A stretch of 61,378 nucleotides of DNA from Chloroflexota bacterium (lineage in GTDB: Bacteria > Chloroflexota > Ktedonobacteria > Ktedonobacterales > Ktedonobacteraceae): positions 1 through 61,378 of the forward strand of contig CADDZH010000016.1 of NCBI GenBank assembly GCA_902812455.1. Direction: 5' to 3'. The notes under the pieces are model-generated. The model worked only from the letters and a program-made list of their open reading frames with translations. It had not been told where the DNA came from and did not search any database. Positions 33,624-35,719 of the stretch are shown in pieces. Made by a program: the position numbers and the translations under genes. How positions within the stretch are numbered: position 1 is the first letter of the stretch; each line of letters starts with the position of its first letter.

Positions 33624-33775
33624 TCTGTACCACTCCTCTCCACCCCAGAACCCGAATCGCCTGGAACAATTCATTAGGGTGAATGATCAGAGCGGGCCGA
33701 TAATGAATTGTTCCAACCAAGACGTTCATGAAAAGGGTTCACCACCCATGATGAAAAAGAGTAGAATGGAGGAGG

Positions 33776-33910
33776 GTGTTCGAACACAGAGATCGAGCCG
33801 ATGTTGTGCTGCGAGCCAGTGACCAAGACTGATCCGGGTGTGTGCAGGGACCACCCATTGTTGCGCTGACGAGACGGCAGTACTCGTGAGCAGCACGCAG
33901 AAGAGAATCT
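33776..33910 (+). ncRNA. Candidate bridge RNA in the left end of the IS110 element
   Basis: The long left end is where IS110-group elements encode their bridge RNA. Here GCCGAT (33797-33802) is the reverse complement of the right flank ATCGGC (35361-35366), and ACCAAGA (33822-33828) equals the left flank plus the first shared bases (33716-33722). The two lie on opposite strands of a possible internal loop closed by GATC/GATC (33791-33794/33831-33834) and capped by TGCTG/CAGTG (33807-33811/33817-33821). A second hairpin (33865-33873/33883-33891) is followed by CAGAAGAG (33898-33905), equal to the element's right end (35353-35360). No counterpart for the left end was found. Confidence 0.5.
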
Positions 33911-33987
33911 TCAGTCATCCACATCCAGGTTGGAGCACCCCTGTGGGAGAGACAGCGCTAGCAACAGATCAGACGAGGTGAGATCAC

Positions 33988-35331
33988 ATGGAAGTGCTCT
34001 ATGAACGGTGTGCAGGATTGGATGTACATAAGAAGACTGTCAAGGTGTGCCTGAAGAAGGCCGGCCGAGGCAGTCGATCGAGTCAGGAGCTTCGCACGTA
34101 TAGTACCAAGACGGCGGATCTGCTCGCGATGGGCGATTGGCTCAAGGAGCAGGGATGTACGCACCTGGCCAGGGAATCCACCGGAGTGTATTGGAAGCCG
34201 ATCTATAACCTGCTGGAAGGGGAGTTTGCGATTCTGGTGGTCAATGCGCAGCATCTCAAGCGGGTTCCCGGTCGCAAAACGGACGTGAAGGACGCCGAGT
34301 GGATTGCCGAGCTCTTGCAGTATGGCCTGCTGGAGGCCAGCTTCATCCCGCCGGCACCCCAACGGGAATTGCGCGACTTGACGCGCTACCGCAGCCGGCT
34401 GGTCGAAGAACGGGCACGAGAAATCAATCGGCTGCAGAAGACGTTAGAGGACAGCAACCTGAAATTGGGCGATGTGGTGAGTGATGTGATGGGCAAAGCA
34501 TCCCAACGCATCCTGCAGGCGATTGTGGATGGGGAGACGGATCCCGTGCGTTTAGCTGCTTTTGCCGTGGGGCGAGTGCAGGCGAGCCAACAGGAGCTGG
34601 AGAGCGCCTTAACGGGGAAGGTGACGGCCCATCATCGGTTCATGCTAGGTGAGCATCTCAAGCAGATTGAGACTTTGACTGCAGCAATTGGGAGAGTGAG
34701 CCAGGAAATTGCCCGGCGGTTCAGCCCTCCTGATGCGCCTGTGGGGGAGGAGTCAGCCCAGGCGCAGGGAATGCAGCAGCGGGAAGCGGAGGGGAAAGAA
34801 CCGAGTCAGCTTCCCTGCACGAAGGAGATGAACTGGCAGCAAGCGCTTGCGCTCATCGATGCGGTCACCGGCATTAGCGAAGAAACGGCGCAAGGCATCC
34901 TGGCCGAAATCGGGATCGAGATGGAGCAGTTTGCCTCGGCCCAGCATTTGGCCTCCTGGGCCGGCGTCTGTCCGGGTAATCATGAAAGTGCGGGCAAGCG
35001 GCTGTCGGGCAAGGCCCGCAAAGGCAATCCCTGGCTGCGTCGGCTCCTGGTGCAGGCGGCGCATGCTGCGGCTCACAGCAAGAACACCTATTTGGCGGCT
35101 CAGTATCATCGCATCGCCAGTCGTCGAGGGGCCAAGAAGGCTGCGCTGGCCGTCGCCCATAGCATTCTGGTGATCATCTACCACATCCTGCGCGACCACA
35201 GCACCTATCAGGATTTAGGCGGCAATTATTTCGACGAGCGGGATCGCCAGGCAGTGCAGAAGCGCCTGGTCCGGCGCCTCGAACAGTTGGGCTATCAGGT
35301 CGAACTCCAGCCGCTGGCTCAGGTGGGATAA
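33988..35331 (+). CDS. IS110-family transposase (DEDD + Transposase_20)
   Basis: 447 residues. The N-terminal RuvC-like domain has CAGLDVHKKTVKVCL (first Asp), ARESTGVYWKPIYN (Glu) and KTDVKDAEWIAELLQ (later Asp). The C-terminal Transposase_20 domain has ITGISEETAQGILAE-like sequence and ASWAGVCPGNHESAGKR, whose Ser is the expected nucleophile, then ARKGNPWLRRLLVQAA. The gene appears intact. In IS110 enzymes these domains recombine a circular intermediate with a target chosen by a bridge RNA. The 266-base upstream region is unusually long for a leader and is annotated separately. Confidence 0.95.
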   Translation: MEVLYERCAGLDVHKKTVKVCLKKAGRGSRSSQELRTYSTKTADLLAMGDWLKEQGCTHLARESTGVYWKPIYNLLEGEFAILVVNAQHLKRVPGRKTDVKDAEWIAELLQYGLLEASFIPPAPQRELRDLTRYRSRLVEERAREINRLQKTLEDSNLKLGDVVSDVMGKASQRILQAIVDGETDPVRLAAFAVGRVQASQQELESALTGKVTAHHRFMLGEHLKQIETLTAAIGRVSQEIARRFSPPDAPVGEESAQAQGMQQREAEGKEPSQLPCTKEMNWQQALALIDAVTGISEETAQGILAEIGIEMEQFASAQHLASWAGVCPGNHESAGKRLSGKARKGNPWLRRLLVQAAHAAAHSKNTYLAAQYHRIASRRGAKKAALAVAHSILVIIYHILRDHSTYQDLGGNYFDERDRQAVQKRLVRRLEQLGYQVELQPLAQVG

Positions 35332-35719
35332 TTCCCTACCGGAGGTCTTTTTCAGAAGAGATCGGCAACACCAATGCGTGGTATGTCATGTTGAGCGAGT
35401 GAGCCGAAGCCCTGAGGAACGAAGGGGAAACATCCGCTGCCCGCCCATGTCATGTTGAGCGCAGCGAAACATCCGCTGCCGATCGACGAAGATCCTTTGC
35501 TTCGCTCAGGATAACAAACCATTCCCGATCCTGGTTGGTAAACATCATTATCGGCCCGCATGGAGTGACAACCATGTCCATAGAAATGTGTCACGATCCA
35601 TTATCGCGCCCTACATTTCTCTTGGCGCATTGTGCATATACCCTGAAATGTGCTACATTTGAAATATGGAATAAGAGAAGACAGAAGGTAAATTCAGAAA
35701 GAAAAGGAAGCAGGCTTTT
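35332..35719. other. Gap between the IS element and the aminotransferase gene
   Basis: After the short IS right end (to 35360), it contains a family C MITE-like copy. A reverse-oriented copy of the GGGCCGATAATGATG...CCAGGATCGGG segment (35521-35560) follows, then an AT-rich stretch before the aminotransferase. No gene is seen. Confidence 0.7.
35383..35513. repeat. Repeat family C (MITE-like), double copy
   Basis: ATGTCATGTTGAGCGAGTGAG starts one copy and ATGTCATGTTGAGCGCAGCG a second about 65 bases later, ending in TTCGCTCAGGATAACA. Confidence 0.75.

Follow-up and report, generated by a model that had tools for sequence, protein, structure and literature searches.

Bridge RNAs are under development as programmable DNA insertion tools, and the rules for reading them come mostly from IS621-like elements. 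In IS621, as described in the parts of PMC11208160 and PMC11208158 used here, the RNA is encoded in the left end of the element, upstream of the transposase gene, and carries first a target-binding and then a donor-binding loop. According to the sections of PMC11187229 drawn on here, IS1111 elements have the top-strand match first in their guide RNA, while ISEc21, the sole IS110 example in that work, shows the reverse. Here we analysed a stretch of 61,378 nucleotides from a Chloroflexota bacterium (contig CADDZH010000016.1), hereafter the window, in which an earlier note had proposed a candidate bridge RNA. In all likelihood, a bridge RNA with target guides in reversed order is encoded by the left end of the element in question; it would bind the DEDD transposase and base-pair with both target and donor DNA. 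We computed the homology, the conserved fold and the covariation between guides and DNA on which this reading is built. The element and its insertion site comprise the following features:

33722..35360, plus strand: IS110-family element, 1639 bp, counting one core copy
33988..35331, plus strand: DEDD transposase, 447 aa, with PF01548 and PF02371 matches
33716..33721, plus strand: left target ACCA and core AG, read directly and from the alignment of the rejoined flanks
35361..35366, plus strand: right target ATCGGC, read directly

The D, E, D, D and Ser residues of the transposase align with those of IS621 (8wt6), whose acidic residues and serine are catalytic according to the portion of PMC11208158 used here. 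The protein has a DEDD RuvC-like domain and a Transposase_20 domain with the catalytic Ser, and the element has the layout of the IS110 family, namely a long non-coding left end (266 nt) and a short right end, which measures 29 nt from the stop codon. The core AG is found at 33720-33721 and again at 35359-35360. When the flanks were rejoined at AG, a shift of zero gave the top score (62 versus 50-57 for shifts of 1-4), and the joined flanks regained homology to the other arm of an inverted repeat (CCAACCA-AG-ATCGG versus CCAACCA-GG-ATCGG). Relatives with multiple copies have the same sort of boundaries. GA had been our initial candidate for the core and was replaced by AG because, in our judgement, a core of AG or AA agrees better with the sites of KrIS, L020/L021 and P. 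brasilensis.

The inverted repeat is 31 nt long (33692-33722 and 35529-35559) and 84% complementary, and the element sits in one of its arms. The two arms are probably the ends of a small palindromic repeat that was hit by the insertion of the element; their end sequence, GCGGGCCGATAATG, was absent from the five related genomes searched. The right flank (35383-35480) contains the short direct repeats ATGTCATGTTGAGCG and GAAACATCCGCTGCC, two copies of each, in the manner of dispersed repeats. Among viral contigs, we found three relatives at 40-48% identity and no close sibling.

Within the left end, the following parts of the RNA and its surroundings were delimited:

33774..33943, plus strand: bridge RNA, matched by covariance model R1 at 90.7 bits (E 2.4e-23, as a seed row)
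33791..33834, plus strand: target-binding loop, closed by GATC/GATC, with an apical hairpin at 33804-33819, from the model and changes on both sides of pairs
33836..33926, plus strand: donor-binding loop, with an outer stem (33836-33842/33920-33926) and an inner stem (33859-33867/33889-33897)
33762..33767, plus strand: possible -10 box TAGAAT of a bridge RNA promoter, picked out by eye

Twenty-eight related left ends, one of them that of the window, align well, and model R1 was built from them. It yielded 102 matches across 94 of the 99 sources, in relatives that span several phyla, and 96 of these matches are followed by a transposase start after 3-59 nt; the remaining six are second matches or have no parsed transposase start. 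Given that the window itself is among the 28 seed rows, independent evidence comes from the 66 non-seed sources, which hold 72 of the matches. No match was obtained for five sources (L001, L011, L091, L122 and L123), with the left ends of L001 and L011 being incomplete. Some loci hold two bridge RNA matches, for example L087 (1306-1459 and 2931-3099) and L061 (2322-2475 on the plus and 1098-1254 on the minus strand), and likewise L041, L018 and L085, an arrangement pointing to adjacent or nested elements. A search of Rfam returned nothing at the gathering score, nor at E values up to 5.

The earlier note had inferred a bridge RNA from guide-like matches to the flanks and the right end, and this identity is now backed by homology, by compensatory changes and by guide covariation with flanks and ends. 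The covariance model from related left ends, which it had suggested as a check, revealed a conserved RNA with a conserved fold and two internal loops, as in bridge RNAs and seekRNAs. Indeed, changes on both sides were seen at 26 of the 31 base pairs of the fold (two outer stems added). Paired cells amounted to 90.9%, compared with 29.6-41.9% in slid controls, and none of 500 shuffles matched the observed covariation, in an alignment that had been fitted to the model and that favours the inner helices for this reason. The single-sequence fold of the window RNA was unexceptional, being marginally better than shuffles (z -1.53). For the donor loop, the inner stem comes from alignment rows and covariation, and the outer stem from direct reading and the single-sequence fold. 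The stem GATC/GATC (33791-33794/33831-33834) put forward in the earlier note held, with three of its four pairs changing on both sides, but the proposed cap TGCTG/CAGTG found no support, the conserved apical helix being formed by 33804-33809 with 33815-33819 (alignment rows and covariation). By analogy with IS621, transcription would start at around 33774, and the RNA would form a complex with the transposase that carries out the recombination chemistry. As the putative -10 box lies within the left end, the bridge RNA may not need a circle-junction promoter.

The target-binding loop holds two guide segments:

33797..33802, plus strand: 5' guide of the target loop, GCCGAT, reverse complement of the right flank ATCGGC at 35361-35366
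33822..33829, plus strand: 3' guide of the target loop, ACCA-AG-AC, comprising the left target, the core and two handshake-like bases that also open the left end

Both had been recognised in the earlier note. The complementarity of GCCGAT to the right flank was confirmed as it stood, and the identity of ACCAAGA (33822-33828) to the left flank runs on to 33829, with ACCAAGAC at 33822-33829 being identical to 33716-33723, a segment that spans the left flank, the core and the opening bases of the left end. The loop segments complement both target strands, the right side more weakly; in the window, the 5' target guide has a mismatch at one core base. When random stretches of the window outside the element were drawn (60,000 draws per match), the chance of a match was 1.3% for the right flank, 0.05% for the left flank and 0.03% for the left-end copy described below, and the right-end 9-mer gave no hit in 60,000 draws. 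Taken alone, the right-flank match would be weak.

We then scored each loop segment against the ends and flanks of the element it belongs to, with shuffled elements as the control, using representatives below 70% RNA identity and three redundancy cut-offs, 60% included. The 3' target guide matched the left flank over 7.13 nt compared with 3.99 nt after shuffling (n=30, 0/5000), and the 5' target guide matched the complement of the right flank over 4.41 nt compared with 3.33 nt (n=34, 0/5000). In this reversed order, the left-target test gave 0/5000 at all three cut-offs (n=19 at 60%). The right-target test gave 0, 0 and 2 of 5000 (n=21 at 60%), and 19/5000 at the 60% cut-off with the core removed; right targets entered this test for 71 of 74 rows, those with a right-end 8-mer score of 6 or more, and at least one right end chosen in this way, that of L020, is wrong, which weakens the test. 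Tests for the IS621 order were null at each cut-off (3997/5000 and 4994/5000 below 70% identity). The suspicion voiced earlier, that the order of the guides might be unlike that of IS621, was upheld across the clade.

A covariation map of 44 representatives, with RNA columns on one axis, DNA positions on the other and no preselected segments, showed three signals far above the rest, namely the right end (z-sum 29.9), the left junction (24.7) and the left-end motif (20.6), all in sense. The right target in antisense was the weakest signal, with a z-sum of 9.0 and noise of up to 8.9 in its own map. The 3' side of the target loop also matched the core plus right flank in sense (1/2000), perhaps as a result of the shared core.

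Copies at different sites gave a mixed picture for the expectation, raised in the earlier note, that sibling flanks should go with their guides: left flanks were consistent throughout, and right flanks were so in P. brasilensis and Paenibacillus HW567 but not in K. robiniae. In P. brasilensis, GTATT-AG lies on the left of 8/8 copies, and AC (8/8) or ACT (7/8) on the right. HW567 has ATATA-AG on the left and AA on the right of 5/5 copies. The ten K. robiniae copies, some of which have common flanks, carry GC(C/T)CG or CTCCCG before the core, and no common right target was found among the nine copies with a right flank, nor any clear match between the KrIS right flanks and the KrIS 5' guide. In the P. 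brasilensis genome G030, the intact composite site ATAAAGTNNTAGACTG occurs at 18 places, in which left target, core and right target are joined, as opposed to one for the reversed pattern. ATAAAGTNNTAGACTG is a dispersed 16-bp motif resembling the insertion sites of eight element copies (L034-L040 and L074). L003, which is 81% identical and has a frameshifted transposase, is the closest relative for which both ends are present, and its right-flank match is one base off register.

The donor-binding loop and the element ends contribute six further features:

33850..33858, plus strand: 5' guide of the donor loop, ACCACCCAT, a direct copy of the subterminal left-end motif
33741..33749, plus strand: subterminal left-end motif ACCACCCAT, located 19 nt into the left end and recurring on the 5' side of the donor loop
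33898..33907, plus strand: 3' guide of the donor loop, CAGAAG-AG-AA, comprising right end, core and two handshake-like bases
33729..33741, plus strand: left-end hairpin TGAA-AAGGG-TTCA, its last base common to the motif; longer in many relatives
33752..33759, plus strand: subterminal inverted repeat, left copy TGAAAAAG, read directly
35347..35354, plus strand: subterminal inverted repeat, right copy CTTTTTCA, read directly

The loop matches the right end directly and the left end through a sense copy of the subterminal motif. The first of these matches, CAGAAGAG at 33898-33905 with the right end at 35353-35360, had been reported correctly before. A fourth match, to the left end, had been expected but not found in the earlier note; it exists, as ACCACCCAT at 33850-33858 equals 33741-33749. 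For the tests, the 102 matches were reduced to 80 unique rows and to 74 with enough downstream sequence; the left-end motif test had n=68, omitting rows without a parsed anchor and L020 (wrong anchor), and left junctions were parsed in 63 of these 68. The donor 5' side matched the left-end motif over 6.59 nt compared with 4.45 nt after shuffling (n=32, 0/5000, and still 0/5000 at n=19). In antisense, this comparison gave an unexplained 56/2000 with all rows and, once redundant rows had been taken out, 408-945/5000. For the donor 3' side and the right end, the match of 7.47/8 against 4.57 (n=34) is biased, as the right end was picked by best match; with shuffles given the same choice, it was 7.54/8 against 6.01 (top of 20 shuffles 6.14, n=74). 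The two donor-loop bases after the core equalled the first two right-target bases at 0.91/2 compared with 0.70 after shuffling (26/5000, n=46), an excess as expected for handshake guides; in the window one of the two matches.

In the 36 elements measured, the motif starts 17-33 nt inside the left end, and the left copy of the subterminal inverted repeat adjoins it on the side away from the core. Of 70 elements, 54 had such repeats with a length of 7 bp or more, a count made without a shuffled control. Between core and motif lies the hairpin, whose pairing is preserved among relatives while its letters vary: arms of at least 5 bp at the fixed start occur in 35 of the 63 parsed left ends, compared with none or one of 63 for starts displaced by 1-6 nt upstream, and by the rule used the hairpin is absent from 15 of 63. 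A canonical left-end guide, complementing the top strand beside the core, was sought in the left-junction and hairpin antisense covariation maps and gave low z-sums (up to 6.2 and 7.7). Past two bases, no RNA pairing with the left-end bases beside the core was detected in the covariation map. Columns 194-197 of RNA alignment A2 showed an unexplained antisense signal with the left-end motif (z-sum 10.9), which may reflect the kinship of the rows.

A probable mechanism is the following. The core and two bases of the incoming end would lengthen the 3' target guide, much as handshake guides do in IS621. On its 3' side, the donor loop would pair with the right end and core, and on its 5' side it would read the left-end motif between the hairpin and the subterminal inverted repeat instead of the core-adjacent bases. 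The donor loop would then read both ends beside the subterminal repeat arms, with the hairpin possibly drawing the motif towards the core. Compared with IS621, the recognition site would be turned round relative to the transposase gene (AG here being CT on the other strand), so that the first-exchanged strand should be the other one.

Distant relatives with large transposases point the same way. In 6/6 of them (L131-L136, from Arthrobacter, Streptomyces, Acetobacter, Agrobacterium and twice Bradyrhizobium), a copy of the left flank was seen by eye on the target loop 3' side, with one mismatch in L134; R1 matched L133 weakly and neither L134 nor L135, so for these the reversed order is a reading by eye. 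The proteobacterial L133-L136 are preceded by a TTAAAAAACG-like run that, by eye, resembles the site at which IS3-family transposases undergo frameshifting. Three copies of IS621 (L128-L130), again read by eye and on the left side, have an RNA 5' side identical to the left flank but for a single mismatch per copy, and in the IS621-like L137 the right-end copy comes first (5'). A tree splits the clade from two IS621-like sequences (moderate support of 90/82, with long-branch warnings). It separates the clade from IS621-like sequences only, because no IS1111 sequences were identified among the matches listed (60 of 830 records and 60 of 1549).

Tentatively, and with slightly less than even confidence, we propose that the large-transposase elements form a third class, in which an upstream RNA of opposite polarity would lead to the other strand being exchanged first and in which donor recognition would be split and its motif positioned by the hairpin. 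Donor recognition would here consist of the right end plus the subterminal left-end motif, with the hairpin kept by pairing and not by sequence.

It is also possible, if unlikely, that the reversed order is real and the left-end copy of the donor 5' segment is not a DNA guide, both copies being constrained by something else, such as a promoter, protein binding or alternative pairing within a longer precursor RNA. By eye, the window's left-end motif shares bases with a possible -35 region, and the parts of the IS621 papers used here describe nothing equivalent to bottom-strand pairing at 17-33 nt from the core. Moreover, the sister elements L052, L067 and L075 differ from L042 and L045 in the donor 5' segment and have the same left-end motif, i.e. 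a change in one copy only, and the antisense signal of the other RNA segment with the same motif also fits this explanation. However, the two copies covary over a continuous diagonal of about eight columns, and do so at the lowest redundancy (n=19, 0/5000), so protein binding is not an easy explanation, and in Bacillota the motif sits upstream of the likely promoter (by eye).

We regard it as doubtful that the element is a displaced IS1111-type element and not an IS110 variant. Its guide order matches that published for IS1111 in the part of PMC11187229 drawn on, and the subterminal inverted repeats counted above are in keeping with such an origin. On the other hand, the RNA lies upstream, the left end is long and the right end short, the distances of the repeat arms from the ends are other than 7 and 3 bp, and the transposases of the 28 clade members in the tree measure 402-460 aa compared with the 330-350 aa given for IS1111 in the same part of that paper. 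That the RNA is of the ordinary IS621 type and the reversed order a chance match is very improbable: despite the 1.3% chance of the window's right-flank match alone and the weak right-target covariation, this is largely contradicted by the covariation map and by guide tests that were null for the IS621 order and positive for the reversed one at three cut-offs, and the three IS621 copies, read in the same way, gave the forward order on the left side.

If the bridge RNA with reversed guides is as proposed, a widespread clade with the opposite order would mean that guide order is not simply tied to the IS110/IS1111 split or to the position of the RNA, and scans presuming the IS621 order would mis-assign the guides of clade elements. 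Guide placement, the first-exchanged strand and the need for the subterminal left-end motif are testable predictions of this reading.

Neither a reversed order with an upstream RNA nor a subterminal left-end guide is described in the parts of PMC11208160, PMC11208158, PMC11187229, PMC12045711, PMC12859917 and PMC12500396 used here; our literature consisted of open-licence papers, with most subscription journals and bioRxiv outside it. The guide panels of ISPpu10, ISAar29 and ISHne5 in PMC11208160 may already display the reversed order. The IS110-like ISArsp3 (NC_008538, 43% identical), for which the portions of the literature examined noted no RNA analysis, resembles the window element in having a weak upstream R1 match (E 5e-4) and, as read by eye, a left-flank copy AAGTGAGTTT on the 3' side of its target loop and a AATGTCAG similar to CATGTCAG at the right end; it differs in being actinobacterial and in its 414-aa transposase. 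With the IS1111-type seekRNA of ISEc11, as covered by the sections of PMC11187229 used, the element shares a top-strand complement 5' of the bottom-strand complement and subterminal inverted repeats. In the IS1111 type, however, the RNA is downstream and not upstream, the transposase is much shorter, with 330-350 aa and not 447, and the repeats extend by 7 bp on the left and 3 bp on the right, compared with an 8-bp repeat at other distances here. The ISEc21 seekRNA (IS110 type), on the same sections, is likewise upstream of the transposase, but has its bottom-strand match first, which is second in the window element. The expectation that the bottom-strand match lies 5' of the top-strand match was generalised from few elements (IS621 and ISEc21), and as a rule for the IS110 type it fails in the large-transposase clade because the guide order there is reversed. 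As far as the parts of PMC11208160 and PMC11208158 used here describe IS621, our element agrees with it in the RNA position, in the succession of target and donor loops, in guides that include the core and in handshake-like bases, and the D, E, D, D and Ser residues are conserved. It departs from IS621 in the opposite order of the target guides, in the right end being read by the donor loop 3' and not 5' side, in a second donor guide that is a sense copy of a subterminal left-end motif, in a core of AG or AA instead of CT, and in a transposase of 447 aa instead of 326 aa.
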